Below the pieces are notes generated by a model. The model was not told the origin of the DNA. It saw only the letters and a program-made list of their open reading frames with translations, and did not search any database. The translations under genes were made by a program, and so were the position numbers. From Lepidurus packardi (taxonomy: Eukaryota; Arthropoda; Branchiopoda; Notostraca; Triopsidae), in the NCBI GenBank assembly GCA_023053545.1, contig JAKZAN010000002.1, positions 8,242,790-8,306,789 of the forward strand: 64,000 nt of DNA, written 5' to 3'. Below, piece by piece: positions 28,946 to 57,400 of the stretch (its first letter is position 1; every line of letters starts with the position of its first letter).

Positions 28946-31051
28946 TTAGGATGAACTGGGTAGCTCTCCGTGATCTTTTGTGAAGTTAGGGTTGATATGT
29001 CCATAAGGCGTTTCGACTGAAGCATGCGGGATATAGTTATTAGAGTTCGCAATTGGAAGATCGTTGTCATCTTTTTCTGTAAGGGGTTCATTCCAAGGCT
29101 GCACTTTGCCGGTCGCGAAAATAAGAAAAAATATTCCACCAAATATCATAATTCCAGCGGACAATAAAAAAGCAATCTGCCACCGCTCAATTGTTTGCTA
29201 TAAATCAAGAAAATTTCGTTAATAGAAAGCAATGAGTTCGGAAAGTGCGAAAAATTTTAAGATTACGTTGCCGTCAGTTAAGAGTCCCACTGTTAATGGC
29301 GCCACCCACCCCGGAAGGGTTGCTGTGGTCCCGGATATCCCCAACATTGTGCCTAAGATGTTTTCGAACGGTGAAACCATTGATTTAAATAAAGAGTTTA
29401 CCAGCAAAATTTGGGGCGATATCCATCGGGTTACTTAATAATCCACTGTTACTAGCACCTTGCAAGCAAACGGATAACGTTAGCAATCCGTAGGCTAACG
29501 AAGGATTACACCCAGCAAAGGAAACTAAAATTAGGCAGCCCGCTGGACCGAATTGAGCTACAGAAGATAATGAATGATAAATAAAAGCTTCTTTCAATGT
29601 CCGGAATAGGACAGGAAACCTTACCAATACTGTTAAACACTTTGCGAACAACTGTAATGGAGCAAATGTTTTTAGATAGTATTGTGGAGGAAGTAAGACC
29701 GCAAATTATGGTGAAGATCCAGTTCACTAAATATGGCAGGGCGGAGTGTAATGAATTCTAAAGAAATAAAAGTAATAGTTGAACTTCACAAGAAGACTAC
29801 TAAGGTAGAATATTCACACTCATGTTGTCTAGGTGCAGTATATTTTTCAAATATATAGGCAACTCAGATAGAAGCACGTAGAATCCCCAACTGCCCGTTA
29901 ATTGAGCTACTAAAATCGCCCAAAATCTTGGTGAAGTCAATAAGGAATAGATGGGTAAAGGGATTGCCTATTACAATGCGCAAAGTATGGGATTACTTTA
30001 TCTGAAAGCGATTAAGTAATTGGATTGCGTTTACTTTCTGACAAACTCCAACTTTTTGGGAAGATTCCAAAATGTAATGCTTTTCGTTTTCAGAAATCCG
30101 AGGATGCTTTTCAGGTGAATCATATATGCACGTAAACCAAAGAATGGTAAAGAGCAATACCACTGTGCCTTGAATGTAGAATACATATCTCCAGCCCATA
30201 CTTTCTATTATGTAACCTGTTAAGGTTAATCCAAATACCGTTCCAATCTGTGTACCTAATACACAAAAATTTGTTAAATAATAAATTAACAGTATTATCT
30301 ATTAAACGAAATACCAAGTGCGATTATATATACCTGAATAAATAAAACTGACCAACATACTCCGCTCATGAGGCGGTGCCCATTTACTAATCAAAGCCTG
30401 CATTGAAGGAAAAGCCACGCCCTTTATTGGGTACACAATTGGTAAAGCTATTTCTACCTTAGACGATTCTTTAATTACCTGAGAGATTCCTAAAAGGACT
30501 CGAGCTGCTATAACGCCTCCAGCTCCGAATTCGGCGAATAAGGGTAATGCTACCGTAAGAACCCCAGCTATAACTTGACTTGTACCCAGCATGATCTTGG
30601 TACCCACGACCTCCGACATCCTTCCCCCGGGAATTTGTGTAAAGATGTATCCCCAGAAAAAGGATCCCATGACCAAGGCTTGGGTACTCTCATCCCAAAT
30701 GAACTCTCCATCTTCAGTTTCGTCCTTAGAAAGACACCATGTCAAGTTAAAATAATAATGTACGTTAAACGGCTAAGATTTACTGGATCGGTCTGATTCG
30801 GCGCTTTCCCGCATTCATCACTAACTGAAACGTTTGCATGAGGAATTGCAGTGTAATTGACCATAGATACGACCGCAATGTTAATATTTACTCGCGTCAT
30901 GTAAAGAAGTATGAAAGACAGAAATGAAACACAAGCCATTGTCCAACGTGCCGGGAAACCATCTATTTAACGTATAACAGTAAATGTACTCGATTCTTAT
31001 AAAGATATACGTACCTTGGAAAGTTGGTCGCTGGTTACTATTAGTTGTCAT
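28946..31051 (-). CDS. SLC17 family anion transporter, tandem copy B, 10 exons
   Basis: Paralogue of copy A, 515 aa predicted. Exons: 31051-31015, 30962-30784, 30724-30479, 30421-30334, 30255-30035, 29967-29818, 29757-29625, 29557-29402, 29352-29267, 29197-28946; 1,548 nt in frame. The first nine coding exons are the same lengths as in copies A and C (37, 179, 246, 88, 221, 150, 133, 156, 86 nt); only the last exon, a cytosolic tail, differs (252 nt). It keeps MTRVNINIAVVSMVN in helix 1, WGYIFTQIPGGRMSE, and GVAFPSMQALISKWAPPHER. The helix 4 segment reads RVLLGISQ, lacking the usual glutamates. The tail is acidic and Asn-rich. The copy is intact, with no frameshift or stop. Confidence 0.95.
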
Positions 31052-34946: not shown

Positions 34947-36747
34947 GATGCAAGAAAAAATTAGAAGAACGCGAAACTCAATAAATGTACAAACATATTT
35001 ACGTAGGCATTGAACTGTTTATACTTGTGTTTATAATACGTTTTGATCTCCTTTGCGTAAGCTGACTACTGAGAACGTGGATGGGGAAGATTCTGCGATA
35101 ATTAATCTTGACGAGATAAAAGTTTCCTATAATAATATTGATCTACGCCGGTTATCAACTAGTATCCACTTTGCTACTTTATCTGTAAATTTTATGGGAC
35201 TTTTTATCTTTTACTGTGTATGGCTTTACGGATGCGTATCGCCGACGTTTTCCCAATGACGAAATATCAACTAAATGACACACGTGGAAAAGATGGAACT
35301 TCAATATCAACCAGACATGTGTAGATTAACACTCTGAAGTGTTAACTTACATAAGCTAAAAAATGCTATCTTGTCAATATTGAATTACCTAATCAAAATC
35401 TCCCATCAAACTGAAAATAGGATAATTCGTTCAACTGATAAAGATTCGTCACGTGACGAGGCAGTTTTTTAATGTTTCTCAATGCTACCATAGGGTGCCA
35501 ACTTATGGCAGCTAGCAGCATAAATATTTACTATTTTGTAATTTGTCATAGGAATCGAAAAGTTTAGGTTGCGAAGACATGGTTAACACTCTCTGAATGG
35601 GGACATTTACTAATACATTTAACACGTGTATTAGATCCTTATAAACTCTAACATGGTATCACATCTGCCCTTTTTACTCATTTTTTTGCAGATTTTATTT
35701 TTTTTGCACGACTCATTGACTCATGGCTAACGGTGAAACTAATGCTACTCTTTGCCTCTCCGTTCAAGTTTTCTTCAAGAGAGAAATTGACCATCCATAA
35801 AGGAAAAAGGAAAGGAAAGTAATACAACGTTCTTGCCAAGCTTTCATGTAGTTTCTACCCTTTTTTGGTAATTAATGAGGTGGGAGGTTTAGGTCAAAGA
35901 CACGTAAGTATAAGGAGAGTTACTGGTTTGGATTTTTTTTTGGATTTTTTTCTTTGTTGGGAATCAAAGTTGCCAAAGACGCTGGTAGTTTCGTTGACAG
36001 AGATAGGCAAAGGACGCAAGAGAAAGTAAAGAAGATAGAGAGCACAAACATTCATTTCTTCGAAGAACAATCAAGTCAGTTCTCAACAGGCCCATCGACA
36101 TGCATATGCCATTTTTGGTTGATTTTGAGACTTTCAACGTTACACTTCACTTCTGGGAGACAGAGTGGTATAAGGGGAATAAAAAAAGCCTATGTTTATC
36201 CGCAAATTCAACTTTTTTCTTTTCTTTTTCATCATGCTAACAAATGGGAATGCGTGGGAAACCAGCAAGTTTTTAACACAAGCGCTTCAATCATTTTAAT
36301 CAAGAGTATGGAAGCCTTGCAGCTTGGGTTTAGGAATATCCAAGTGACAAATTCACATATCGGTGACCTTTGTTTTTAAACTAATCCAATTATGTTCCTA
36401 CACAGGTTTTACTCCATTTGTATCTAATTCTTAAAAAAAAAAAAATCTTTTGTGTATTTTTTAACCGGAAAATGTGAAGTCATTTTCCTTGTTTTAAGTT
36501 TTTGACTGACTAGACGCGCGAAAAATTGCACAATTCGTTTTCCCTTGGCAGCTGGTGTTAATAAGCTAAGATGGAGTTTTAAGAGTAGGCATAGAGCGTT
36601 TTTTTAGTTTGTGGAGTTTAACAAGTGTGAGCATTAGCTTTTGTAATTTGAAAAGCTGTGTCCTCTCAAAACTCGTACCTCATTTTTTAGTTAATTTTTT
36701 AAGGAGTTCCCCCTCCCCCCCTTAGAATTCTAAGTTTGTCAAAATGT
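34947..36747. other. Intergenic between SLC17 copy C and tomosyn
   Basis: The stretch holds the presumed promoter of copy C at its left edge and the tomosyn 3' flank at its right. A plus-strand open frame at 35954-36379 (141 codons) has no recognised family or splice context and is probably fortuitous. Homopolymer tracts occur near 35935-35950 and 36432-36445. Nothing else is recognised. Confidence 0.5.
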
Positions 36748-39700
36748 TCATAACTGGTACCATTTTTTGTCCCGGTATTTAACCATCAAGGCATGCGCAG
36801 CCTGGGAAAAGGTTTCCGCCTCGTTGGTCATGCGCTGTGTGCGTTCTTCCAGCAGACCTAAACGTTCACCTCGCTCGACCAATTGCTGTCGTGTACGTTG
36901 AACCTCAGCAGCTATTCCAGTGGCGCGAACATTTAACCCGTCAGTGCTGTTAGGTGGAGGAGCCGACCCCAAAATGACCTTGGCCACGCCCCTGCCTCCT
37001 TTTCCACTTGCAGTTTCACCAACTGTTAAAACAAAAAAATGTACATGAAATCAAGGGACAAAAAATTTCGCAGAACTGATTACTGGATTGATTATGGACT
37101 TACAAAGTTCTTCACGATCTAAGGAACGCAATCCTCCTCCAAATAACCCGGTGAAAAAACTCGGTTTTGGAGGTTCGGGCATATCGCAGGCTAAAAACAG
37201 TTCTCCTACCATGTCAGGTAAATTGGCAACAAAGTCTGCAGAGAAGGAGAACTTCTCGATTTCCGAAGGAGAGCAAAGGTATAAGCCGTGTCCATAATTG
37301 CTGAAGCAAAAAGTTCGACTAATTCTATTGGATCAAACATTAGTCTCCAGAAGATAATTAAACATGTTTTGACTCAAGACGTACTGATCTGTGTCCTCAT
37401 TAACAAACATCTGCTGCGCCCAAATAGAGAGCATGGGATCGATAATATTTTGCCGGCTAGTTTGAAAACTTAAGTCAATTAATGGTAAAAATTCCACGGT
37501 GAGCAAAGGCCGCAGACCAGGTAGACTATGTACTTGCAAATGACCTGTTGAAACGTAGCTAGCAACACAGACGCCATCTAGGTAAAATAACAATAATGAA
37601 CGTAAACATCACCATGAATTAGAAATTTTTGTAATATTTTTTTTGGAGCAATTATTGCCTTTTTACCTTTAAGATTAACCACATCAGCTCGTACAACAAA
37701 TGCAGACTCTGCAGTTACTAAGGACGTTCGATACAAACAAGTTTGGGAAGGTAAAGACAACACTCGAGCTTGTTTCTCGGAAACCAAAACTGCAATTTGC
37801 GCATCCGAATGCAAACTGTCAGATCCACTTGCATTCGGAGTCTGTGCTCCTAACGGAGTACGCGTAGGCGTCCCTGTATTACATTAAAATGTACGGTTGA
37901 AAACAAGACGATTTTACTATTATTATTATTTACGGGATCGTTCTCGAATATCCTTGGATTCATCTCTCCATGTCTCGCTGGGACTGAGTAGCAAGGTACC
38001 ATTCGCTCCATCCAAGAAGGCTAGGGTAAGAATAGACCCCTTCAACCGAAAAATTGAGCCTAGAATGGAAATCCCAATCGTTAATCCAAACAACGCAAAA
38101 AAAGTCATATACAATAAATAAGCAAATAAATGTAACGACATTACCACTAGGTGAGACCATGAGAGGTTGCGTTAATCGAGGCTCTCCCGGCGCCGGAAAA
38201 TTTATGACTATCACCAAGACTGACCCCATACTCGTGCCCACCCAAAGTGATGGAGACACGGAGATATCTAAAATGACAATATCTTATTATGGAAACTATG
38301 TCAGAAATAAAACTGTACCCGTCTTCCTAGCAATGGTATCAGCAAACACCAAGGAATCAATTGCTTCATTGCTTGGGGTTTCAAGACTCGAGGTACTGGA
38401 ACTTCGTGACCGCGAAAAGGCCGAATCCACTTTGTCTAGAATACAAACATGTTTACTATTCCGAGAAACGACGCTAAAAATCGAGACGTAACAAGGTTTC
38501 TAATTGATGAACACACAAAACCCATGCTGTTTGGTAAAAATTACATCGAAGCCGAAAAAAAGGAATGCATAACAGGCAAAACAAGTACCACGCTTTCCAA
38601 GTGAAACATGCGCAAGCAAGCCCGCCGTTTAGGGATTTTTTTTCCTTAAAAAAAAGGAAGCTGAAAATACGCCCACAAGTTTTAGTGAAAACGTCACCAG
38701 TTGAGTAGGATTAGTTTGCTTGGCTGTGATTGGGGTTTCTCGTTACGGAAAAGGAGTCTGCATCTTCGCAAAAAAGGAGAGTACACGCCGAACTACGCCA
38801 CGGACCGAACACACGAAACTACTACGTTACAGCCGACTTGTGTTCGACGCCAAACAATTATGTTTTAATTAGGGTTCGATAGAAGAGAAACTTCTTATTT
38901 TTTTAACGTCCGTAAGACTTTAATATACTGAAAAGGAAAGTGTGCTATTTTTTTTGTCCACACAGAGTGTGACAGCAAAGATAGAAGAAAAAAAGGAGAC
39001 GGTATGCGGGACGAGAAAAGGGGAGGGTTTCAGACGCGATGACGTTTTTATCTACCAAAACTTGGGTAGCGTCGAAGTAAATGGAGACTCCGCGTGCGTG
39101 GATCGTAGAAAGTGGTAATCCCGCCCTCTGAGTCCCCGCCATGGCCATCAGGCCCCTCAAAACCGTCCTCGTCTTTAGAGGCGGAGGAAACAGATTGCGA
39201 GCAGAACGTGAGGCCTCTGGTCAACCGATGGCGGTGGGTACCTTGAGATTTGGAACGTCGCATGGCGGCCAAGTCGGATCGCTTGGGGCATGCGCAAGAC
39301 AACGAGCCTCGCCCGCCTGCCCCCAGCCCCGTCGTAGGAGATACGCACGCTCCATTACGCTGTAGGTTCGAATTTTCATCCAATAAAAAAACAAAAAAAT
39401 CGAAAAAGGAAAAGTAGGAGAAAGGAAACCAAAAGCCGTAAGAGAAGGCGAGATGAAAAGTAAACCAATGAGAAAAAGACGAGAAAAGGGGATAAAAAGA
39501 AAACTTGATTAGTGTTATACATAAAAAAATATTGTTTTGCAAAGTTAGAAAGTCACAAGATAAACTGACATGTAACTCGAGTTGGTTTTTCAACGTTTTA
39601 ATCAATAACTAAAAAGGCTTGAGTGAGCTTTTTTTTTTTTTTTAAAAAAAAAAGCTACTAAAAAGGCCCGTGTTAGCCAGTACGAGCACTAAACGATTCC

Positions 39701-42700
39701 AATCGATTCTGAACCCTAATCGATAGACTATCTTGTAGGCAACATCTCTTAATATTCGATAATCGACGTTAAGTCTTTTACACAATATAAGATTGATTGT
39801 CTTATCTTCAAAACTTGCTAAACTTTGTGTCGAAGATATTGCATCGTCGACAAAAATCTGAAAGCATTTAGGAATCTTTTCATTTGTAAACTTTTTAAAA
39901 TCGACAGTTGTGAATTATTTAGTTGTTTCTATCATTTTTTTGCTTGATCTTCGTCAAATTTTGCTACTAAATTCGAACGTTTTAATCTATACTCTCACCT
40001 CCATAACCGTTTGACTCGGTGAAACCTAGGAATTCTGATCACCAGTTTGACCGAGTGGATATGGACCTTTTTGAAATTGGACAACTAGACATGTTTACCT
40101 CATATATCTCAGTCCGTCACCCATAAGCAAGAACCGGAACATAAAGCATACGGCAAAGCTTTGGTTAGGCTCCTCCTTACTGTAATTTAGACAAATTGTC
40201 GCTTTCTTTCCCCTTTAGTACGGCTTTAATGAATGGAAAAAGAATGGCCTACGAAGCTGCAGCTTAGTGCCACGTCAGCAATAGCGTTCATTTTCCTTCC
40301 TGGAATCAAGGCGGAGTATCGGGCTTAAGTTACTTCGTCTTTACAACGGCCGAACCTTGCGATTTAGTATCAACACTTCATTCCTATTCGGCAGAACCAA
40401 GCTTGAGTGAATTGGCAAAAGCTTGTCAGTTTACCTTGAAGAACTCTACTTCTATAGGGTTAAAATGTTTAGACATAGACAGCACATGGGAGTTTTTCTA
40501 AGGACCACGAAGAAACAATGTAAAAAGAGAAGCAACGATTAAACGCAAGCTTTTTTTGGCACTGCTCCCATCACCGTGGCAACATTTTTGGTATATGCGA
40601 CTAATTCTTTTACATTTGGTCAGCTGCTATGCAGCACAGCGTATGTGGTGCTGGGTTAATAGAGGGCCAAGCAATGTGCTCCGCACTTACTAAATTTCTT
40701 TACGAACGAATCCAAAATGCTGGGCGGGGTGGCTGCAATGCCATCTTCGTCGTCCGTGTCAGCTCTTAAATCCAAAACTTGTGTCGCATCAACCGACGCC
40801 CACCGTTTCAGGGAGATGCATTTCCCATCCAGCGTCGAAGTCGTTCCGGCAGGTTTACTATTGTCTTTGGGCTTTTTCATTCCACGCGGCGGTCGCAAAG
40901 GATTGCCTTCCGGGTCAAATAAAGGCATTTCTGTCAGAGCTGCGGCAGTCGTGGCCGTAAAATCTTTGCCTGACGCCTGTCGTCGGCGTTCCGAATAATG
41001 ATGATCGTAACGTTTGGAATCCGACAATACGTCCACCGACCCACGCCGGAAGTTGGCATGAAATGGAAAAGCTGTTTGCGAAGTTTCCTCGCACGGTGTG
41101 GTAGGTTTGGAATTATCGCTATGGTGGCTCATTTGCGTGCCATAAAAAGTGCTCCCGCCAGTAGGTGTTTGAGGAATAGACGCCGATCCACGCCGTGTTT
41201 GAGAATGTCCGCTCAACATATCCCGAAGACGAGAATCGGCTTTTTCCAGTTTCTTCTTCAAACTGAAACCTTTCCATCCCGCGGAGTTTTTTCTGTTGGT
41301 CATGCCCGTCCCCGCACGACTTTCCGAGGAGTCAGTAATAAGCTGTTCCTGTTGTTCCGCGTTCTCTTTGTTGTCAGCTAGGGGTGGAGTTGCTGAGTCT
41401 TCCGATTCTGTGGCTTCTAAAGCGTCTTCCACTTGACTAACACCCTACGAATCGCATTACGCGAGGGAGACTTGCGTGTTACTGACTCATTTTTGTCAGA
41501 AATTTTTGTCCCAACTGTGAACCCCACACATTTGCTGTCGTAATAATTTGTGCTCTCTTTTTCTTCTCCATCTTTTATACTGATCTCGTAAGAAAAAGAA
41601 AAGCTCCCGGAAACAAAAGGATATAAAGTAAAGGTCTTACCTGATCTGTGGCTGCACTCGTAGGGGATTTACTGCGCTCGTCGCCATCCACTCTACCACT
41701 CGTGGAGCTTTCCATGGGACGTTTGGGCGAACGAGGTAATCTTTGATACGGATCCGCACTACTGTACAAATCCATCGTGGCCATACTGAGTAATACTGTC
41801 TTCTGGATCACATCGATTACCACCAATCCCGCTTCGTTTCCGTACGCTAGCCTGATAAAAAGCAAGAAAGGAAAAAATCTTTAAATACAATAATACAAAC
41901 AATCAGCAATAAACTAACAAGCTATCGAGCAAATACACAACGAATTACTGCAAATAAGAACAAATAAGTTAAAACTCGCTTAAATGGATAGTTGAATATA
42001 AGAAAGACCAGCATGTCTAGCATGCCATACCAAATAACTTAAAATGTAATTCCAAATTCCTCAATCATAGTAGGGCATGCTCTCAAGGTTCTTGAAATAC
42101 CGCACCACATTGGAAAAAATAAAAAGCTGGAACTCAAGCTCGGCTTGCTGTGGCATTGCTGAGCCATAGAAGCGAACAACATACCACGTGAAAGGTAAAT
42201 TGACACCGAGAAACTCCCCATACGCTCGATTGTTAACAAATTCCTTGGGTAATGTTGATTTGAATGTGCTGGCAAAAATGTCAGAACTGATTCAGCGTCA
42301 TAGTAACGTAGACAGGAAGTTGCATTCAACAGAGGACAAAGTAGCGTTCGAAAACATATACTTAAATATACTAAACAAAAACTATGTGTTGTTCAACCAT
42401 ATAATTAGCTTACGTTACACGTAAGTTAACTCCGTATGCAATTTTCATTAGGAACGGCTAAAGGTGTTTAGCTACGTCCTATTGTTTGATCAAACTTCTT
42501 AAACTCTGTCGAATTAATTATCTGTGTGGTGCAGTTGTACTCGTATATCGCAATTGCGAAAAAAACAACTTAGCCTCAAAAAAACGTCGAAATCATCGGA
42601 ATCTACAGAAGTGATCACGGTGACACTAGTCAATTAAAGGGGGGAAAGTGCGGTGAAAAGGTCTTGAAAGAATTGCAGAAAACTGGGCCCAACGCAAATA

Positions 42701-45700
42701 AACACCAGCGAAAAAAACTTTAGAATATTTACAAGCCGTAGGCAGAATTGAGGCATAATGCCGAAATGGAGCCAGGCGATTCTCCGTCCAACCAGGGACT
42801 AAGGCAAACCAACTCGGGTTGGAAACCAGGCAACCGACGTTGTGGTCCGCTTTTCACCCGTAAAAGACTGGGCTGTTCCTATTTATGACAAGAAAAAAAA
42901 CGTTACACCTTTTAATTTAGATTAATGGAGTAAAGCTATCCGTAATACCTTCCGCATAGGATGCTCTAGTTCTGCTAACAAAGCGGCAGCTTGAGCACGT
43001 CGACTGGCCTCGCTGTCAGGAGACGGATTAGGATCTTCGGAAGGCTCAAAATAAAGAGGAACTTCAAGCGCCTGAAAAGACGGGAGATACGCTTTACAAA
43101 AGACATAAAACTTTGTAACATAAAACGACAAGAGAGATAAGAGGTAAAGGAAAGGTGGTGGTTTTGGTAAAATGGCGTTATTACTGTCGTTTCAAAGGCG
43201 GCTTCTTGGCGCCGAAACCGGAAGAAAATGACATGACTGGAAGCTCCGGCAATGGCTAACTGTCTGCTTTCAGGGCAAAGGCTAATGTGATGCACGGCTA
43301 ATAAATCTTCTTCGGCGGCAGGATGACCTTCCAGAATTCCTCCAATCCCGCCTTCTTTGCTGCTCCCGGTCGCTGATTTGCTTTTGGATTTCTCGAAAAC
43401 TTTGCTCGTCTTCAATTTGTATAAAACTTGCAATGACAAAGACGAGGTATCCCAGAACTTGACACTCCCATCGGCGTGCCTGAAAAGATAAGAGAGAATC
43501 GTGTGAATACAACCACTTTGCTAGTTCATTTTTTAAAGTTTGTTTATCAGTTATACGGGAAATAAAGCAATTTACCCTGTGAGAACAATTTCTGCATAGG
43601 ATGGGGCTAATGCTCCCCATTCGCCTCCGCTAACGGGCCATTCCCTTTCACTAAAACCAGCTCGGCGACTGGCTTGTCCTCCCACGCCCACCGAATATAA
43701 AGCAGGAATTAGGTCCACAGGACAATCGGCCAAGTAAAAACAAGACGTCACAGGCGATTCGTGGAGGTCCATCGGATATGGATTTTCGAAGCATGGGAAA
43801 CCTGGCGTCAACAAATCCACCACAACTAGATCATTCTGCAGGAGAACCAACACTGCATACGGCTCTTGGGTTTCTTAAATCGTTATCATTCCAATTTGCA
43901 GCCCACCAAAAATATGTAAAAAAAATAAAAACAAAAAACGAAAGAAAAGGGAAAAGTTCAAGAAAGTTAAGAATATGAATTTGCGACTTTAAATTGCATT
44001 ACCGGAGGCCCAGGAAGTTTCACAAAGTGTTATAAAATCGACCACGTTATGTTCCATTTCTAAAACTGTCGTATTTCGCCCATGGCTTACAGTAATGCTG
44101 GAAGAACGCCCGGGGCGATCCTGAGAGAGCCCACCCGAGAAGATGACGAAAGGATCCCTGCAGAATGCAACATTGAAAAGGATTTAGGGGAGAGAAGAGA
44201 ATATCAGGAAACCAGTTGAAATAGGGAGAAAAAAATTTCCAACAAAAGATAAGAGGCGAGTTCATAATGCTGAGCTTCGGAAGCATGAAATTTCTCAAGA
44301 TACTTATTTCTCAGGCAGAAAGGAAATCAAAAAAGACTCAACCCATGAGATCGAGAACAAATGCACATAAGAAAAAAAAAGTTAAGTAGGTTCGCGTCAT
44401 CGATCTGTGCAAGCAGACTTTGACTCGATCTTGTCACCGCTTTCTCGCTCATGTAAACTTACTCAGCTTTGTCATGCATAGCAAATGCGTCGTATGCACC
44501 TAGATAGTCTATTCTCGATGACAAAAGATGGAGAAAGGGACGCGGAAAGACAATATCACAGTTTTAAAAGGTAGGACTTACCCATCTTGCGAAGTCTTCC
44601 ACTCCACTTTCCAAATAGGCTTGCAAGTTTCCTGGCGTCCATCACGATTGGCTTTTGCTACAAACAACAGAATATATTTACATATTCATAGCCTTCGGGA
44701 CGTACACATGCACGCTTCAGGCATAATAGAATGCAAATGACTCACGTCATTAAGGTAAAGAAAGGGAGAAATACTTACAATGTGGGTACGACAGGGATAC
44801 AGGTTGACCTTTTAGCGTACTCCGCGCATTCCAAGTGATGAGAGACCCGTCTCCATGTGAAGTCATGAACTGCTTGCCGTCAGAAATCCAGGATGCGGAA
44901 CGTAAAGGTTCAGAACCTTGGTATCGACAATCTGCACTGCGGTTCCGTAAGTCCCACAATACACAAAGACCGCTCTCATAGCCAATCAGCATCTGTAAAA
45001 GAGAAGAAATTGTTAAAAAAAAATCAATGATTTGTGGCCAGACTTCAACTCATTTCACATGGCTTTCTGGATTAAAGTAAAGACATCAATACATAATGAC
45101 AAGGTCATAAGAAATAGTTCCTTAATATTTACACACAAACTAAATAAATAATACACAAAATTACATACGAAAACAATAATACAGTCGTACAAACGCTTGT
45201 AAAATACTGCTATGAATTGAACCAAAAGTGAGGGACTTCAGAGGGAAGCAGATGGGACATGTTTTCGTCATTACCACGCCCGAAAAGACAATGTAATAAG
45301 AGATGCCACCAGGCGTACAAACTATACCTTTATTAGTACATCTAACAAATGTAAAATAATCTACACTATCAAACTTTAAGAATTTAGTACATATTAATGA
45401 ATGTTCCTGTTTCTAAAAAAAAGGCCACGGAGATCTTTGAGTCAAATGGCGGTTTAAAACCATTTTTTAACTTCCTTGACTGTTCAGCAGAAATGATTAA
45501 TTCAGACAATACAAGCCTTGGCGTTCTGCCAATTTTACCTTGTATTCTATAACTTGAAGAAAGAAGGCGAAAACAGAGAACTCGGACAAAACCACAAAAA
45601 AATCTCTCACCGTTGTTACCTCAAAGAACGAGTACAGCAAAAAGATATTGGAGTTCTGCCCACTTCGCAGTTCAACTTTGACAAGTTGCCAAGGATCATC

Positions 45701-48700
45701 TGTCGTCTTGCTGTAACCTATATCGTTTAATGTTCGAGTATAAATCTGCAGAAAAGCAGCAACGATTTTATCTGCGTTCGCAAAAGGGGTTTTTCTTAGC
45801 TTTTTTCTTTTCCTTTACGCTTGGACTATCTGACATAAATTACAAGGGTGGGGAAGGGACGTCGTGGTACTTTCGAAAGCTTCAGGGTCCTTAAATGATT
45901 ATGCCTCTCCAGCCCGGAAGTGTAAAAGGGAGCATCATTATCCTTGTTGCATCGATCCAAGCCAGTCTTTGGCAAAAGAACATTAGAGAAATACAAGCAA
46001 CCCTTGCTCATCTCTGCTGTGTGCTGCTCCTTGTTGCGCTTTTCAGATTTTAAAGTCTCCACTAAGACACGCTCTTGTCTCCTTGAAGACGTCTACGAAG
46101 GGGCTTGAGGCAAAAGCATCTTCCCAAAAGAAACTTTCAGAGTTTGCATCCATTAAAGGATCCTTTTCCCGATGTACTCAAACTCGGTTAGATTTCAGGG
46201 GGAAACTGTTGTTTTCTATCCAGGCAACCTCGAATCTTCACCACTCTCCCTCTTTTCTCTGGCTTAAAGAAAGGGAAATTGATCGAAAAAATTGCCCATA
46301 AATATTCAATTTATTTGCCAGGGCAGAGGTGGAAATAGCAAGAAAAACTTCAAAAGTATAGACTACAACTTCTACTCTCGTCCGAATGCTTGTCTGCGGT
46401 CGCTTTCCTTGCTACCACTGTGCGGTTCTCTCAATTGTGCTGTTCTGTTGTACGTCCCAGCCAGGCAAATCGATGTAGCCTATCTCTTTGCTGGCACACT
46501 TGCTTTTCTTCTCTTCAGTGCGCACTGTAGTAGCTACACGTGAGACGGGAGAGGGTATTCATGGAGGGGGATACCACGTCTTACTCGGACGGTAGTGTAG
46601 TTAATTTGCTAAGTTTCTAAACGTGGACTTCAGAAGTCACTGGGAAGTAAAAGCTGCTTCCCTAGCTTTTACAGGCGCATTTGGATTAATGCCGGTACAT
46701 TTCCATGAATTATGCTGCCGGATCAGTAAAACACACACAAAAAAAAACTTTTATTAAGTAAAAGAACTTCGTGGAATTCCGAAGATCTTGCAATCGGATT
46801 TCGTTCCAAAAACTCTCAAGGAGAAAAAATACGAAACTGTATTATAAAGTTTTGGCATTTCCGAATGAACGCTTCGGTCGGTTTTTCATGGCGATGTGTC
46901 ATTTTTGTGTGGTACTTATTAAAAAAAAAATATGGGAACTGAAAGTTTCAAAAGTCTGAATGCAATCAATGAACACCATCAGGGTTCCGAAAGTTAGTTT
47001 CCAAGAAGATAAATAAATCAAAGAAACTGAAACAATTGAGTTCAATCAGTGCTCTGTACTTTCCTTTGACTATTTTACAGTACAGTACTGTATTTCCATT
47101 GAGCGGTAGTGCGAATCGTATTTTAATCTTGCGATCCGCAGATCCAACTTCAAAACAACTAGGGAGGACTGCTACGTTGTACGAAGCTATGAAAGCAATA
47201 CTCTCCCATAGTCCATCCCATATCCTGCTGAGACGCTAGTCTGTCAATTCTGTCAGAACCTGATGCCAAACGGAGTTTAAATCGATCCTAAAAGCTCTTC
47301 CACTACTAGCGGAAAAGCTAACCTTACTTCCAAGTCTTCTTTTTATTTCAGAGATAAATTTCGAGCAACTAGGAAACTTCTAAGGTACATTAAGAAGGTA
47401 TGTTTTGACTTTTTTCATAGGTTTATAGCTACCTACAGGACACTTGTTATTTTAACGTAAGATATTACCGGTAAGTGGTTTTCTGACCACAGAACTTTAA
47501 ACAAACTTTCCAGGAATTAAAGGTTTGCATCAAGAGCTGTACTCTAGCGTGACTTGAAAAGTTTCAAGGGACGCAAGCTCTCTATTTAAATAATTATACC
47601 CTGTTCTGTATTTATCTACGAGTACCAAGAAGGCGTTAAGAGTAACCTAGTCTTACTCTCACGCAGCAAAAACACAAGCAAGAAGCTCGTGAGATTTCTG
47701 AATTACCCTAATTAGATAAGCATGTCTGAACAACTTTCCTAATGCATAACCTCTCGTGTTTAACATATTGACTTTCTAAAGCTGCTACTAAGATGCCGTC
47801 TGTTGTCCTATGCCCTTACAAGAAGGAGCAACAAAAGGTAACGCAGGAAACCGTCCTGGGGCAGGCCGGACTTACTCGTACAGTGTAGGCTATAACATGT
47901 CTCGCAGTTGCTCAATAATGTAAAACAGGAAAACCTGAATTAAATACACGAGCTGTCTCTAAAAGAAACTTAATAAAAAGGATGATTTATAGCAATAAGT
48001 CCAGTTTACCTTGGAGGAAGCTTGCAGGACTACCTTGCAACCACACAAATCGACTTTCTTAGAGGAAACCTGACGTATATAGGTACGAATATGAATATAA
48101 TACGATATGCGTTAAAGCCTTGGTTTAGTTTTAATTCCTGTAAACTGGTAAACGTTGCCGTACTCCGCAACAAAAATCGTTCAAAGTAGTTTAATATGAT
48201 AATGCATTTAATAACCTAGTAAAGAAAAAACAAAGGCAGCAAACTGGAGAGGAAAAAGCGCGCGAAGAACACACAACACGAGTACTCGAATGTCAGCACT
48301 CAATAAACAGCGAGTGCCTGCCCTGCTTTGGATCGCGTTCCAAAACAGTTTTGAGAGCTTCTGTCTGCCTGAGTTTTTACGACTTTTTGTTATCGCGACA
48401 GTGTTTTTCACTGAACTAGAACGCGGGTACAAAAAACCTAGTAGCCATAACTCAATTAATACTAAAAATAATGTATACTAAAACCTACGAATTATAAGTT
48501 TTTACTAAACGCTTGTTTCTACAAGGTATTCTCCAACAGAAAAGAAACTTATCCAAAGTAACAACAGTAATTCCTAGTAATCATAGTGCGCTAGAACTAT
48601 TAGTCTTCTGGACTTAACAAAATCGAAACTTAACAAAAGTCTTCTGGACTTAACGCGACCTACAAAGGCAAATTGCATAAAGTAACAAAAGGAAGACGCG

Positions 48701-51700
48701 ATAATTACCTTGTTGGCATCCACAGGACAATCACTCAAATGAACAACAGGGCCAGGATGAGTTTTCCGCGACCTACAAAAGGCAATGATAAAAAGCACAA
48801 TGTAAATTAATGAGATTGAATGAATGAGAATGAATGAGATTCACAATGTGAATGAATGAAACCATTTACTATTGTGGAAAAAGTTGCGAAGAGATGCAAA
48901 TAGAAATATACACCACAATTTTAAGACTTTGATGGTTATAGTAACGAGAATAACCTTCTTTCCCCCCTCTTCTCCCTGCTCTCTTGGCTGGAGGACCCCA
49001 GGGCCTAATGAAACACCTTACCAAGTTTCTTCTGGTCACTCTCCGCCCAATGATCTTGGCATTGTCGTGAGCCGTAACTAGAGCAAGCATCGTTACAAGA
49101 AGAAAAGACGAGGAAGAGGAATCCCCCCAAAAAGTACAAGACTCTATAAAAATCAATAGTGTCCAAGGTATTCTTTTCAAGAAATAAAAAAATTCTAAAC
49201 AAACCAGGATAAAAACTTGGTTTATAGCCCCAGAAAGTTGACAAAATTCCTTGTGATTAATTTTACAAGTCTTTGTACTCCTGATGTTGGCTGTACACCA
49301 CGTCATTACGCTGCGGAAGCATTTTTCTTCGGGCACACTTTTATGTTGTCGTTTAAAAACGGAGAGCTTTTCCCTCTTTACTCTTTTATTCTACTTTTTA
49401 TGGCTTTGGCACGCTTTCAATAGACCATAAATCTGGCGAGTAATTGGGAGACTGATACTGCTACGGTGACGTCACAATCCTTGACGAAAGCTGGTAGCTC
49501 ACAGAAACCTGCCTTGTTGCAGAAACAATCGTGAGGATTTCTTCAGAAGAATGATATGAATTCACATATCTGGATAAAAGTGAGAGACACGTTGCTATAA
49601 AAGAAATGAAGGATCCTGTCTTTCGCTGCTAAGCACACGAACGGCCTCGCAGCCTTTGTATCATGATTAACTAGGAACTGTCACCTTATCATTGGCACCC
49701 AACCCCCGTTTTTCACGCAACTTAGACATGTCTTTTGTATTATTTATGTCCCAAACCAAGCGATCCCAGAGAACCTATCATGTGATCGGAAATACCTTTT
49801 TCGGTTCCATATTTAACAACAGCCAACAAAATAACATTGAAGTTAACAAAATCACATGAAGATTTTGATGGATGCTAATAGTCGAAATCATTTCGAGAAC
49901 GATAAACTTTGAAAATTAAAAATTTTTTTTTTTTTTTTTTTTGACTAGCCGTTCATGAGTTATTGGCCTACGAAGTTTGTTTATGACGTTACAGCCGTAG
50001 AATAGCGTGGCTCTACGGTGCTTGTTAGCATGGTTACTGTTTACTTCCATTCTCAGAATAGTCAATAAAGCTCTCGGTCACTCACTAATCGTCTTCAACG
50101 TTAGAAAGTCACGCGACTATGTGATATTTTCATCAAAATAGAAGTCATTCTGATGAACAGAAGATCAATGTAAAAAAGGATGTAAACAAATTTAAATTTT
50201 AGTATGTCTATAAATGAATTTATACGGTAATTTATCTTAAGATTACCTACGGTTCTATGCGCTGTCTGAAGCTCAATTCGCAAGTCAAGGTATAGTAAGA
50301 ATCCATGATATTAATGATGATAATATTTCAAACGTCTTATATTCGAGCCAGCAAATTTGCAGCGAGTAAGTGTTTGCTGTCGTGTGTTTGCACGGGCAAT
50401 TTTGGCTGTCAGAGTAGGATCGTTGCTAACCTTGGGAAAAGCACTCCGTTCAGGGAATTTACATTGGTAATCCATTTATACATTCAATTTATAGCTGAAA
50501 AAGTTTGTGTTCAATTTGAAAGTGACATAAGAAATGACAGTTAAGACGAAACTGTGAAAAGCATTGGGCTTGGTTGCAGATTCCGGCTTTTTGATCTACG
50601 ATTGGTAAAGCCAGCGTTTGTCTAAAAAAATTGACTTGTTCAAGTTCAATCCGGGAATATAACTATGTGTACTATTGTGCTATCGTGTGATGGGCTTGGG
50701 GGAGAAAAAGGTTGATGTAAAGGCTTTTCTCTGCCGTAGTTTCGGCCGTTTCCTATAAGCCTTTCCTCGAAAATTTCCTCTGCTTTCTTCACGGAAGATT
50801 TAAAGTCTGCGACTTGGAATATAACTCCAGCCTGAATGTCTTTTTCTAAAAAAAATTTCTTGCTCACACAAGATACATTTTTTAGCTTGTTCATTTTCTA
50901 ACTAAAGGATCTGCAGCAGTCTTATCTTAAACCCTAAATTAAATCCTAAAACGATTGTAATCAAACCGATCTTTTCTTCTGGTTTGGCGAATATCGAACT
51001 TCCTTCCATTTTTCAAGTTCATAAAATCCATACACGCTCTTAAAAAATGGTCTAAAATCCAAAGAGCAATCGCGACGGTTTCAAACCACAAGTTTAAGAA
51101 TCTTTAAAAAATGAAGTTTTTTTTTAAGATCCTTCAGCGCACAACGGGGTAACAGGGCACGAACACTGCTTAGTAAGCATACGTTGTTAGAACAGACTTC
51201 ATGGAGATAAAAAAAAAATCTTCAAAATTTTTTTGTAGGGAAATAAATCGTTGGGGGGTAAAAACGTACACTTTCGGTAACACATCTCTTTACATAATAC
51301 ATCGATAAACTCAATTATGCTTTGGAAAATAAATTCTACGTTTGAGATTCGGAATTACTTTCGAAGACCCGAAAGGACGAGAAAAACAAAGTTGACGCTA
51401 AGTAAACTTGGTAATTCGACTGACAGTCAGCGAAAAGCCATTACTGGCTGATCAGTATTGGGCGAAATTGTCTAGCAAGCAAGTTCTTGGCTCCTTTCTT
51501 CTTTTAATTTTTAAGTTGGAATTTTCGAAGAAGAAAACCGCATCTGCAGACGCTTCATGAAAAGAAAAGGAAGTTCCGAACCGTCAGACTGTAAATCTGC
51601 AGCGCTATAGAATGCCTGTAATCAGGTATGAGAAATGTTTGAGAATTTGGGAGAAATGCTTTGTTGTACTGTACGTGTTGCATCTTTAACGACCGACACG

Positions 51701-54439
51701 GACCAGAAAATTAGGAAAAAGAAACTCAACGGGCGTTTAGAATAATTATGGAAGGGAGAAAAATCTTCATTTGCAAAACACATTTGATGGGCTGTGAGAC
51801 TTCATTCCTGTCTTTTGGATCGGGAAACCCGGGAGATTGTTTGGGTTCAATTAATGATGGGCAACTTCTTCTACGCACTTCTATGCAATGCGTCCGGTTG
51901 TGTACGCGCTGTATTCCGGAGAAGAAATCAGATCAAGGATTAACAAGAAAATTTCATACTGATCCATTTCAGAAGAATCGTATTTGTCCTCACGCTTCTG
52001 TCCTCAAATTTTAAGGGAAATTGCGACCGATGTCTAGAAATTTCTTCCGTCATGAAAACAGCCTTCCACGAACAAAACGGCTGATCGCAAACACGGCAAA
52101 AGTTTCAAGAAACGACGCGTTAGTTGCAGGGAAAACTTGGCTAATTGGATTCGGTTCTTGAAGACATCTGAATGAGTGAAGTCGAAGGCTTAGCGTAATT
52201 CGAAAAGCAATTTCACTTTATTTTTCTAAAATAAATAAATTTTTAAACTTTACTTTTCATCCTAAACCCAGTTCGATTTCCTCGCATCTCAAACGACTCG
52301 TAGGCCCTAGCCTTACTCTGCTAGTCTGTGAAAAACTAAAAGATTTCACATCTCCTATAATGGTTAGCAAAGCCTTCGCTAAAGAAAGTGCCAGGGCTTT
52401 AGACAAATGAGCTATTTATTCCTCACGCTGCAAATCCTGACAACGAATTTCTGCGATTGCCAAGTTGGAGGTTAAGCGACTAAAAAAAGTTTCTCAGTTA
52501 AAGTGAAGATAAACGAGCACCAACATAACTTATGTTAGCAATTAACCTACTGCGGGTAGGAGCATGTTTTGTAAACACTAAAGGGTTCAGGAGAGTCGAT
52601 CTGTTGAGTAAAATATTATAGGAAAAGACGCGTCTTATAGGGTTTCATGGTGTGAGCTAGTTAAAGATTTATTCGAAGTATCTTTACTATGGGTTTCCGC
52701 AAGTGGTTCGCAACATGGTTTAAAACTTCGTACACCCAGACCACGCGATTAAAACTTTTAACCTGATTTAACTTTGTAACTGAACTGTAACTGTGTAACA
52801 TTGTACACCAAGGAACCAAGTTAGGAACCCCTTGATTAACTGTCGCTTAGTTTAGTTCACAAGAATGAAATGCAAGATTAGCTTAGATCGCAAGAATGAA
52901 ATGTAGGCTTTGCGTTTTCATCCGTCCCTAGTTTTATGTATGTTATTGTCACTGTCTGTATACTGATAGCCATTCAAACGCAATTTCCTAGCCTAAGCTT
53001 GGCTAAACTGACACACGATCGGAGCTAAACGGTAGCCTTGTAGACATTGCAAAGCTTGCGAATAAGCTCCACTTCCTTTCATTTCCTTATGCAAATCGAC
53101 CACCAAGGGCTCCGCTGTCGCCAGGCATTCAGCAAAATTCATAAATTAAATTAGAAACAATCCTGACTACCCACGTTACTCTGCTAACCAATTCTTGTCA
53201 AGTGATGTGATTAAATTCTCTTGTCCTGTGGTCTAATTAAATTTATTACACCATGAAATAAAAGTACTTTTTCTTTCAAACAACCTCCCGTAAAGGATTC
53301 TGTCCCTTTCTTTTACCTTCATCAATATGAAAAAGGAATGTAAAAAAGGTCAGGCGAAAATTCGCTACTTACAATTCAATGGCTTTATTCCAGTTGATGA
53401 CGTAGCCGGATACCACAAAGTACTCTATGTTAACTACATGTATGTTGCCGCGCTCGCTTCCAACATAGAGCCATTTGCTCTGAAAAGGCAGATGAATGCA
53501 CGTAATCCTACATAAAAGAAAACACAGACGTGGACATTTTACCATAGAGTAAAAGCGACACAAGTCCAAAAAATACATAACAAGTAAAATAAGAAACGAT
53601 GCCCTTTTTTCCTACCCCCGCGTCCGGTATCTAACCCTCAAGAAAACACAACGAGACAACAGTAGAGGAAAAGGACTATTTCCTTACGGCAAAAACAAGC
53701 CACAGAAAAAAAATAAAAAAATGGCGCATCCATTCTTTCGAACAGTACCTTTAGTACAGCACTGTTAGTTAGCGCGTGCTTAAACGGTATCATTTAACGA
53801 AGTTCCGTTGAGCAGTCTGCTCCGTTGTGCCTCACGAAACCGGATTACATGCAACCAATAGTTTATCACCGCTAGCCATTCAAGCAAATTGCTAAATGTT
53901 TTTCGTTAATAAATTCTCAAGGAAAAAGCCTCACCACATCCTTTGTATCCCTTAAAATGTCACATGAAAAACCCACAAACCGCTTAGATAATAGTACAAA
54001 AAAATGAAAAATAAATAAAAATGAAACGCAGGATAAATGTACCTCTCTCGTTGAAATTTGAGCGAGTGCACAATTTCCGGCCGCTTTTGGCGAATATTCC
54101 ACAGGTGCACGCTATCATCCGCAGTGGCAGTGATCAATGCACCTTCATTGACCAAGAACACTATTTGGAGCACGGCCGGGCCCACCCCCGAAGCTAAATT
54201 ACTGGCTGTACCAGCTTGACCCGCCGTGGTCGTATTGTGGGCGCTGGGCGCTCCGCCACCGCTCGAGGCATTATTGTTTCCACTGCCCGAGGTTGCAGTA
54301 CCGGCTGCAGGAACTCCGCCAATATTTCCGGCAGGGTTGTTGCCCGAGCCTGGCGTACCAGAGGAAGCAGACGTCGCGGCAGCATGGTTGGACTCTGACA
54401 AAGGATCGTGCCTCACCTGCACATTCACGCCAGGTCTTC
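36748..54439 (-). CDS. Stxbp5: Tomosyn (STXBP5) SNARE regulator, 19 exons, 5' end missing
   Basis: Tomosyn binds syntaxin/SNAP25 and restrains vesicle priming. Exons: 54439-54043, 53507-53373, 48772-48709, 44992-44779, 44657-44582, 44157-44003, 43873-43576, 43479-43185, 43071-42949, 42878-42733, 41851-41641, 41444-40691, 38435-38319, 38267-38145, 38059-37934, 37873-37667, 37577-37385, 37300-37104, 37022-36748; every junction phase agrees (1,368 codons here; the human protein is about 1,150 aa). WD40 propeller hallmarks: LHSL...TCIHLPFQSKWLYVG, WNKAIEL, LIGYESGLCVLWDL, ITGHADG-like TGHADGSVKFWD, LADCPVDLIPALYSVG, DPYQRLPRSPKR, SRSRSSS. The C-terminal R-SNARE has the zero-layer Arg in LVERGERLG and the family end KYRDKKWYQL, without a membrane anchor. 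The N-terminal exon or exons (before GRPGV) are not seen and probably lie beyond 64000 or in the long intron. A Ser/Gly/Asn-rich insert of about 60 aa lies in the first exon here. Confidence 0.96.
39056..39359 (-). CDS. Stxbp5: Alternative tomosyn exon in the hypervariable linker
   Basis: A 304-nt candidate exon lies downstream of the 754-nt exon 41444-40691. It has a very long pyrimidine tract and CCTACAG acceptor on the minus strand, and a TTTTG-GTAGAT donor. It opens in phase 0 and leaves one base, exactly like the 754-nt exon (251 codons plus 1), so either can join exon 41851-41641 (phase 0) to exon 38435-38319 (phase 1), but the two cannot be used in series without a stop. It encodes about 101 aa, locally GC-rich, Ser/Arg/Gly/Asp-rich, with SVSSASKDEDGFEG; the 754-nt exon has DTDDEDG in a similar place. 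If the donor is ignored, the frame stops at 39048. Fly Tomosyn has a mutually exclusive exon pair (13A/13B) in the same linker, as I recall. Confidence 0.6.
44993..48708 (-). other. Tomosyn intron (3.7 kb)
   Basis: The intron between the exon ending ...CPVDANK and the one starting MLIGYESG. The junction is phase 0 and restores the conserved family sequence, so no exon is missing here. I see no mobile element with clear ends and no RNA gene. Confidence 0.6.
48773..53372 (-). other. Tomosyn intron (4.6 kb)
   Basis: The intron joining ...NWNKAIE(L) to SRKTHPGPVVHLSD, leaving two bases before the junction. It contains the third copy of a dispersed repeat at 49943-50130, directly preceded by a run of about 20 T (49923-49942). 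Other open frames (for example 48869-49336 minus) resemble no family. No further structure is recognised. Confidence 0.6.
49943..50130. repeat. Dispersed hairpin-bearing repeat, copy 3
   Basis: Begins GACTAGCCGTTCATGAG and continues TTATTGGCCTACGAAG, then ATGACGT, CTTGTTAGCATGGTTACTG and AAAGCTC, in the same order as the copy at 12012. The 3' part (CGACTATGTGAT) is more diverged. It is preceded by a poly-T run of about 20 nt, which on the other strand would be a poly-A tail and might point to a retroposed element. Confidence 0.65.
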
Positions 54440-57400
54440 CTAATCTGTATATTTTGGGTAGCTAAGGAAATATTTCGGGCAAACAGGGCAAGTTCATCGC
54501 CTTTCAACTTTTCGGGAATGGATAACACTGCTCGCCGTAGTAATAATTAAGGCTAAGATTACATACAAACTTCATTAAAATTTTAACCTGAAAACAGGGA
54601 AGGTCCAACTACTAATCAGATTTGTGAAAGGGGGACAGGTGAAAAGTTTAGAAGATACGAATAGAGCTTACGAGGATGACGATTTAGCAAGCTTAAGAGG
54701 AGAACGAGGAGATGCAAACTACGAAATGGAGAATATGTGGCGGAAGAGGAACAAATAGGGTAACTAAATTCGCAAATGAGACCAATGACTGCTTTCATTT
54801 GTCTGTTTCGCTCGTATCGCTCTCGCTCTTGTCATCCCAGAGGAATTTGTAAACGCGCACCGACTACTCGCAGATGAGCTCAGTAATGCAAGCAAGGCAT
54901 AATCCTTTAGTATTACTGTCATATCTGCACTACCTTGAGGGGCATTTCTGTCCCGATTACTGCAGAAATCTGGTTGGAAAAAACACTTTAACCACGTCCT
55001 AACTGCGTTTATTTGGACCCACAGTTGAGCACTCAGCTGGACAACGGGGCAGTAGAACCATAAATTACCGCAGCCATTACTACAATTACAATGGCGGGGA
55101 AAAAAAGCTAAGAATCACGCTACTTCGCCTTCTTCTAACGCTTAGAGCTAAACACTCCCATTCCCGCTGTGAAGCTATGATGAATTAAGATCGAATTTTT
55201 TCTTACTGGCGATATACCAGAACAATGCCTATTCAGTTGCTTCAGACAGTTTTAGGTCCCAACGGTACAGAAGTAATGTCCTATTTCGCAATATTACTGC
55301 TGAAACAAAAGCTTTGGCAATTTGGCTGCTTCCTTTTGATTGCTACTCTTTCCCCGAAAAACACATCTATTCCAAGTTACTTTTCTTATGCGCTTCTTTT
55401 CAGCCTGCCAAGTCTTAGAAAGAACATACATGTCGTAAGACGTACATTTCCACGTCAGATGTTTGGAAATTAAACAAGGAGAATCCTTAGAAGATTAAAA
55501 ATATAAACGCCAAGGCAATACTTTGTACAAAACGAAATATGAAATTGTAGGTGGTCAATTTGGCATGTTTATAATTGAATACCTTATTTCTCATTTCTGC
55601 AAAACTCGTTACGTATAGCGACTTTAATAATACTGTGATATTCCCTTGTACACAATAAACGATATACAGAAATACACGCTAAGTTTGCTTAAACCTGGCA
55701 ATTTCTACTGCTCAAATTGCGAATAATTTCTCAGACTGACACGTAAAGTTTCACTGACGGTACTCTCATTTCAAGCTAACTTGACACCTACAATCATTTG
55801 GATTTTCTCATATTTGGCAAGTGATGACAGTCAATATATAAGCCAATAAGCCAACTGGTGACAGTACTTAACCCAAGATTTACATCTCACCCAAATGCGT
55901 GGGTGACTACTCCCCGCTCAGGATAAATGGACTTCCCCTTTAGTACTCCAGAGAATCAGCGGTAGCCTGAGCGAAGGAAAGGATCAAAGTATTGCTTGTC
56001 CGGGGGATACTTGGAGCTCTTTGACCCCTCTCAGAAAAAATAAGGTTGGTGTAATATAGCTGAGGACGTTTTCCTTTACTTCTTGTTAGGCTGGACCTTC
56101 TTTTTAGTCCTTACTTGAGGTGTACCAGAGCGGGTCGAAACGTGAAAGCACCCGAAAAGGAGAAGAGCCGAACTGGGATATCGATCACGGGCGCCCAGTG
56201 AATATGCAGGCAGCAATGCGCGACTACAGGGAACTGAAAAGAACCCAAGTGACGGCCTTTGGAACCAGAAGGGTACGGATAGAGGGAAAAGGGACGCAAA
56301 GAAAAGCAAAACTTTGATAAATGAACGTTGAAAGACAAGGGTTGCCACTGAAAAGGTGATGAAGAAATAATATAACTGCCATAAAACGAGGAAGAAATCT
56401 TGAAGAGAAAAGGGAACAAGGAAAAGTGACTTCAGCCCGCTCTAGCCGGTCCCTATACGGACGCAACGGGTCCGTTGTTGGGTTTGAGGGAAAGGATGAG
56501 GTAATGTCCCAGAGGCATGCCATGGCAACGTCAGGACGGCGGAACCTCCAAACGTTATTAATCGAAGACGCAGTGTTGTTGCGGAGTCTTTGAAAGTTCA
56601 CAAAAAGAATTCCAAAACCGTCCCTTCCGTCCAATTCGATTTCCTTTCCTTCTTAGCCTTCTTGGCTTAAAGCCGACTCTTCAAGTGGTTTCGAAGCCTT
56701 AGGGCTTTGCAAAAACTTCAAGGTGTAGGGATGAATAAGGCATAGGCAGTTGGAAAAAGGTTGCAAAACTGGAACTTTGATTTATTTCTGAAACCGTGGC
56801 TCTTCTAAACTTGTCCTTCAGCTATAGAAACGGACTGGGAACTAATTAGAAGGAATTTCTGCAGCAACGCAGCTCGCCAAATAGACTTTCGAAATGCGGT
56901 AAATCAATCTAGCGCTGACGCGAAGGTTTGTTAAACGAATTCTTTCCACATTCCTGATCAAATATACTCAGCTTTATTCTTGAAGTATCTTGTGCGAATT
57001 GTTTGCAGGTTAACTACGGCTTTGACATGCTTAAAATATACTTTTTAGTAACGAGAAAATTAGAATTTAAGACGGATTACAAGACTTATTTGCAACTATA
57101 CTACGGCAGGTTGTAACACCACCTTGAACCATCGAAGTACCCAATATTTCAAAACGAACTATAGCGTCTTCCGGGGAACGTCAACAATCACAAAGGCGTC
57201 GCTTGTGCAAGGGCAACATGATTACGCAGCGGGATAGCATGCTGGCGAAATGGAAGTGAGAGACCGTAAGAAACACAGCGCCGTTCCTGCATCGGAAGGC
57301 TCGTTCACGGAATCTTGACACAAGAGCTGAATAGGTGATCTACACAAGCGTTATTGGGGCGACTTTTACGGGTGTACAGCAATAGCAACGCTTTAAGCCG

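Follow-up and report, generated by a model that had tools for sequence, protein, structure and literature searches.

The window analysed here is a stretch of 64,000 nucleotides (nt) from the genome of the notostracan branchiopod Lepidurus packardi (assembly GCA_023053545.1, contig JAKZAN010000002.1, positions 8,242,790 to 8,306,789). Its minus strand carries part of a gene for tomosyn (STXBP5), in which two exons of the region encoding a linker, denoted '13A' and '13B' below, lie between the same constitutive neighbours. The features on which the following account depends are:

36748..54444, minus strand: the within-window part of the tomosyn gene, exons A-S, with the SNARE motif at the 3' end
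41641..41851, minus strand: constitutive exon K, encoding ...DLYSSADPYQRLPRSPK...SPTSAATDQ and ending in phase 0 at the donor CAG/gtaaga
40691..41444, minus strand: exon 13A, 754 nt, phase 0 to 1, 251 amino acids plus one base
39360..40690, minus strand: intron between 13A and 13B, 1331 nt, with six YTNTCTY matches in its last 350 bases
39056..39359, minus strand: candidate exon 13B, 304 nt, phase 0 to 1, 101 amino acids plus one base
38436..39055, minus strand: intron between 13B and M, 620 nt, ATTAAA hexamers being present at 38924 and at 38869
38319..38435, minus strand: constitutive exon M, starting in phase 1 with KVDSAFSRSRSSSTSSLE... and matching the human STXBP5 query
37577-37385, minus strand: exon Q, with the donor TCA/gtacgt

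The gene was delineated by tblastn with a human STXBP5 query, successive pieces of which matched the minus strand of the window from 54221 to 36754; the query sequence was itself approximate, as are the comparisons with human residues based on it. Exon K corresponds to residues 645-719 of this query, while exon I and both alternative exons, which are without a match to it, were located by frame and splice sites. The resulting model comprises 20 exons, A-S with both alternatives counted, and 18 introns. An end of exon Q at 37469 was dropped because it lacks a GT donor, and 37385 was chosen on the basis of the open frame and a GT donor; with this end, all modelled introns have GT-AG boundaries and the reading frame runs through them without a break. 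The phase check, codon scores, GC segmentation, exon-exon alignment and smaller shuffle run reported below were carried out with the end at 37469; for counting candidates and for the 2000 interior shuffles the end at 37385 was used. The last exon encodes an R-SNARE motif, scoring 30.2 bits against the Pfam Synaptobrevin family (cut-off 26.4, E 4e-07), and the C-terminal end DKKWYQL. The gene product thus consists of a WD40/Lgl-type scaffold, recognised by tblastn over most exons, followed by the C-terminal R-SNARE found with Pfam, which is the organization of tomosyn. A search for the Lgl_C family was blank here and equally blank in every control genome, and is hence uninformative. The human query, an s-type STXBP5, lacks about 28 residues of exon Q (SFQTSRQNIIDPMLSIWAQQMFVNEDTDQ), which are open in frame. 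An N-terminal tomosyn exon lies just outside the window (G000:C2:8307311-8307424), and a weaker second N-terminal match (G000:C4:3120287-3120391) may represent a paralogue, for example an l(2)gl-like gene.

Both 13A and 13B have a length of 1 modulo 3, are entered in phase 0 and are left with one base. When 13A alone is placed between K and M, the frame is open to the natural stop, giving 1377 codons counted from exon A; with 13B alone it is likewise open and gives 1227. Inclusion of both exons brings a stop as the first full codon past the junction codon, and joining K directly to M, with both exons skipped, shifts the frame and then leads to a stop. The two exons consequently share their flanking exons and phases, each is in frame by itself, and both together or neither are non-productive: a productive tomosyn frame requires exactly one of 13A and 13B. 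The coordinates, lengths and phases given for the two exons in an earlier sequence-only reading proved exact, and its claims that either exon joins K and M in frame and that a 13A-to-13B splice creates an immediate stop were confirmed by reading the spliced models. The in-frame codon score of 13A (0.155) is the highest of its six frames.

The pair to which the sequence-only reading had pointed in Drosophila is indeed described: fly tomosyn has mutually exclusive exons 13A and 13B, exon 13 encodes a disordered loop that projects from the WD40 scaffold, and the SNARE end is common to both isoforms (PMC8612732). According to the same source, 13A is highly conserved and 13B poorly conserved across insects, and both fly isoforms restored release in the mutant, overexpressed 13B being less effective than 13A. 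The branchiopod pair would be like that of Drosophila in being an exclusive pair within tomosyn with a shared SNARE end; however, the fly isoforms are reported as expressed, whereas the branchiopod pair is read from genome sequence alone and is likened to them by description. Since the arrangement is described in the fly and is probably present in a branchiopod crustacean, it probably extends beyond insects, and the earlier suggestion that it is conserved over a wide span of invertebrates is to this extent plausible. We therefore consider it likely that 13A and 13B serve tomosyn as internal exons used in a mutually exclusive manner, which would supply alternative forms of the variable linker that joins the conserved blocks DLYxxxDPY and FSRSRSSS.

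This interpretation presupposes that 13B is an exon, which several lines of evidence make very probable. Candidate exons, defined as AG..GT stretches of at least 45 nt with an open frame, were collected from the 18 introns without imposing phase and were scored by codon log-odds together with splice-site matrices built from the tomosyn gene. For coding training, 17 of the 33 open reading frames of at least 200 amino acids found in 200 kb were used, the other 16 having been dropped by eye as retroelement-like or doubtful; two long open reading frames of the window and the constitutive tomosyn exons were also taken in. All 3812 candidates came from eight of the 18 introns, the remaining ten, all short, yielding none. 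With 32.2 bits, 13B ranks first both among the 586 candidates of its own intron and overall, the best candidate elsewhere (45889-45844, intron C-D) reaching 17.0 bits. Free to take any of nine phase combinations, 13B took 0-to-1, the only one compatible with K and M. A further exon in the 13A-M intron was rejected, the best candidate not overlapping 13B having only 14.0 bits, as was one of 124 nt between K and 13A (41584-41461, phase 0-to-1), which is unsupported at 9.9 bits.

When the interior of 13B was shuffled 2000 times, with splice sites fixed and dinucleotides kept, its score was matched by 31 shuffles in phase 0-to-1 and by 13 with the same sites and phase (7 of 400 in phase 0-to-1 in a smaller run); the frame was open across 13B's own sites in 170 of the 2000. 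The guanine-cytosine (GC) content of 13B is 0.60 vs 0.38 in the remaining intron, and the log-likelihood gain for the exact exon is 24.9, compared with at most 10.3 for the best segment in four other tested introns. An unguided search with two change points delimited a GC island at 39353-39083 (gain 28.0), the edges of which lie 6 and 27 bases inside the splice sites. There is no sign of a transposable element, because 13B matches the genome only once, and neither Rfam, searched at the gathering threshold, nor a search for tandem repeats detected anything in 36000-45000. Pfam returned only matches below the cut-off for the K-13A-M peptide and 13B (E 0.13 and 0.27), and two matches of that peptide to ribosomal L3 in PDB (E 0.048 and 1.7) were judged to be due to chance. 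No relative of 13B together with exons M and N was found among viral contigs, and exons G and H gave a single 23-residue match, and nothing else, in prokaryote genomes.

A number of observations weigh against 13B and bear on the alternative, which we regard as quite unlikely, that it is no exon but a GC-rich intronic island with splice-like sites arisen by chance. The codon signal of 13B is weak: its frame is the best of six by 0.03 bits per codon only, 17 of the 18 constitutive exons exceed its codon score, and this score is reached by 93 of the 1653 shuffles, out of 20000, that remained open. Given the island, the total of 32.2 bits is reached in some phase by 114 of the 2000 interior shuffles (40 of 400 in the smaller run), much of the score being GC content, and the non-coding model, trained on the other introns, lowers their scores somewhat, a mild bias favouring 13B. 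The acceptor (cctacag/CG) is weak, at 1.1 bits (13A 1.5; constitutive exons -1.7 to 10.7), and the donor (TTG/gtagat) has 4.5 bits, towards the bottom of what constitutive exons show (3.4-8.3). In addition, the runner-up segmentation (gain 27.6) ends at 38995, past the donor. Chance is nevertheless opposed by the low shuffle counts obtained when phase, or phase and sites, are held to those of 13B, by the proximity of the best island's edges to the splice sites, by the Drosophila precedent, and by the lack of a second copy, Rfam match or tandem repeat.

As an exon, 13B might also be used in other ways. It could be an alternative last exon, its donor being read through and the transcript polyadenylated in the next intron, which would yield a tomosyn without the SNARE motif; K-13B read past the donor gives ...YPSFGR followed by a stop directly after Gly-Arg, and the two ATTAAA hexamers amount to 3.3 per kb in the 13B-M intron vs 0.6 in five other introns. 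However, a six-base motif found twice is weak evidence, AATAAA is absent from this intron, 13B has a scored donor in the sole phase that fits exon M, and in the fly the exons are mutually exclusive with the SNARE motif in both isoforms (PMC8612732); we consider this use unlikely. There is still less reason to see in 13B the first exon of a short transcript encoding little beyond the SNARE part, in the manner of C. elegans tom-1B. It does possess an in-frame ATG (the Met of LAAMRRSKS) and an exit phase that suits exon M, and C. elegans tom-1 uses its intronic exon to begin a transcript, not as a member of an exclusive pair (PMC10112904), a precedent that speaks against mutual exclusivity as well; yet 13B also has an acceptor and a frame open in the phase of exon K, and an out-of-frame ATG (frame 39221-39508) lies ahead of the in-frame one. 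No more probable is that 13B acts as a poison exon, added after 13A so that the stop in the first full codon past their junction codon would lower tomosyn via nonsense-mediated decay. A poison exon needs no 101-codon frame open from the phase of K to that of M, and such a frame is open in only 170 of 2000 shuffles.

The two exons are not related to each other in sequence. The Smith-Waterman score of 13A against 13B is 24, a value reached or exceeded in 975 of 1000 shuffles, which means that there is no detectable similarity, a point that counts against an exclusive pair. Common ancestry of 13A and 13B was rejected in view of this absence, and they are therefore not a duplicated-exon pair. The kinship at which a shared DEDG cluster had seemed to hint was accordingly not upheld; the string occurs once in each exon and carries no weight. 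As for the description of both linkers as Ser/Arg-rich, it holds for 13B (Ser 14%, Arg 12%) but fits 13A less well (Ser 12%, Arg 6%, Thr 10%). The motif [RK][RK]x[ST] is present at three places in 13A (residues 51, 84 and 133 of the exon product) and nowhere in 13B, and the looser RxxS/T occurs seven and four times, respectively. Dscam, Mhc and slo possess tandem-duplicated mutually exclusive exons, which are homologous copies used one per transcript. The tomosyn pair would be like this type in contributing one exon per transcript, but differs from it in that 13A and 13B, with lengths of 754 vs 304 nt, are without similarity and hence do not show the homology of such copies. Scans for duplicated exons would miss 13A and 13B, because the two are unrelated in sequence.

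Possible traces of a mechanism controlling the choice were found in the introns around 13B, where a 15-nt pyrimidine-rich sequence is present in two copies:

39478..39492, minus strand: upstream copy, TCCCCTTTTCTCGTC on the minus strand, 118 nt upstream of 13B
39010..39024, minus strand: downstream copy, exact, 31 nt downstream of 13B

An exact repeat of this length was attained in none of 200 local and none of 30 whole-intron shuffles, where the repeats averaged 8.6 and 9.9 nt and went no further than 13 and 12, respectively; it is family D8 of the 12 direct-repeat families listed and was chosen after inspection of that list. Pyrimidine sites flanking an exon on both sides recall PTB-type repression, and it is possible that the two copies are repressor-binding sites. 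The motif YTNTCTY has 17.1 matches per kb ahead of 13B, a high density next to the 2.8 of five other introns. Counting against control of this kind, the plain PTB core TCTT shows no enrichment (8.6 per kb in other introns, compared with 11.4 ahead of 13B and 6.5 behind it) and CTCTCT is absent. Crowding of splice sites is an unlikely cause of exclusion, since 13A and 13B are 1331 nt apart. Competing RNA pairing between introns as the means of exclusion was set aside: the duplex energies are unconvincing, being equalled by 1, 16 and 2 of 60 shuffles for three intron pairs, and are suggestive at best of such a device. The inverted repeat I1 around 13B consists mostly of A/T runs.

If 13A and 13B are mutually exclusive, neurons would choose one of the two, and transcripts with double inclusion or double skipping would be frameshifted and removed by nonsense-mediated decay. 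The choice would exchange a linker of 251 residues, which has three basophilic kinase sites of the type [RK][RK]x[ST], for a Gly/Ser/Arg linker of 101 residues that has none of this type; this exchange may tune the regulation or placement of tomosyn, with the WD40 scaffold and the SNARE motif unchanged. Our best guess for the selector is a pyrimidine-tract repressor that would bridge the two 15-nt repeats around 13B.

Judging by position in the human query sequence, we take the hypervariable region of mammalian tomosyn to be equivalent to the linker flanked by the blocks DLY..DPY and FSRSRSSS. The mammalian region is composed of spliced exons, which give rise to seven variants from two genes, including s, m, b and xb isoforms, and in tomosyn-1 it is subject to PKA phosphorylation and SUMOylation (PMC3188574). 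Because of these modifications, the loss or gain of kinase sites is a sensible guess for the role of the switch in Lepidurus. The branchiopod gene is like mammalian tomosyn-1/-2 in that a variable region, apparently the same linker, would be alternatively spliced; in contrast, there is one exclusive pair here and several spliced exons there. In C. elegans, tom-1 produces at least seven isoforms via alternative 5' ends and splicing, among them tom-1B, which begins at a 5' exon within an intron and consists of the SNARE part alone (PMC10112904). In both cases an extra exon within a tomosyn intron alters the product, but unlike the 5' exon of tom-1B, 13B is read as an internal alternative. In Drosophila, Tomosyn is also named as one of the transcripts that circadian LNv neurons splice differentially (PMC6025963). 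Among the best matches listed from the open-access literature, no title concerned tomosyn exons in crustaceans, although a report in print is possible. The arrangement itself is already known from the fly, and it is probably the clade that is new. More tentatively, a non-homologous exclusive linker pair may predate the split between insects and branchiopods and have been retained through frame-enforced exclusivity; as part of the same tentative proposal, selection would act on the switch itself and not on the 13B peptide, which hardly conserves sequence.

Elsewhere in the window, the minus strand contains a 966-codon Ser-rich open frame (13507-16407) without a Pfam match at E<=1, probably a large exon of a neighbouring gene, and two similar frames (27555-28088 and 30302-30772) which by eye look like adjacent SLC17-type transporter members. 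Four of the sampled stretches of contig C2 (L003, L006, L007 and L008) carry frames that appear retroelement-like by eye. A nuclear mitochondrial tract (L031) has the order I-Q-M-nad2-W-C-Y-cox1-L(UUR)-cox2-K-D, its proteins having been recognised by eye; a tRNA-Val call inside its cox1 was set aside as spurious. A tRNA-Leu(UUR) gene placed between cox1 and cox2 characterizes insects together with crustaceans. The genome holds 41 COX1 matches: those on C1, C2, C4, C5, C6, C21 and C38 with TGA and other standard-code stops are probably nuclear mitochondrial copies, and those in long stop-free frames on C52, C214 and C43 possibly belong to bacterial contigs in the assembly. There are 42 gustatory-receptor-type matches in the genome at E<=0.01; insect odorant receptors and odorant-binding proteins gave no genome match, though such a blank is no proof that they are lacking. 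Globin matches number 13, of which 10 form five pairs about 550-610 bases apart (four in C3:8583227-8698346, one at C1:8303282-8304135). These paired globins look like branchiopod di-domain haemoglobins, of which HbL is known in Daphnia pulex (PMC7457136). Taken together, the mitochondrial gene order, the receptor matches and the globin pairs suggest a branchiopod crustacean.

Tomosyn sets the strength of synaptic restraint, and its two fly isoforms are not equally potent (PMC8612732). With an exon pair such as that described here, one gene could probably yield two brake proteins differing in a flexible loop and, if the switch exists in a crustacean, it would probably be an old pancrustacean feature of presynaptic tuning.

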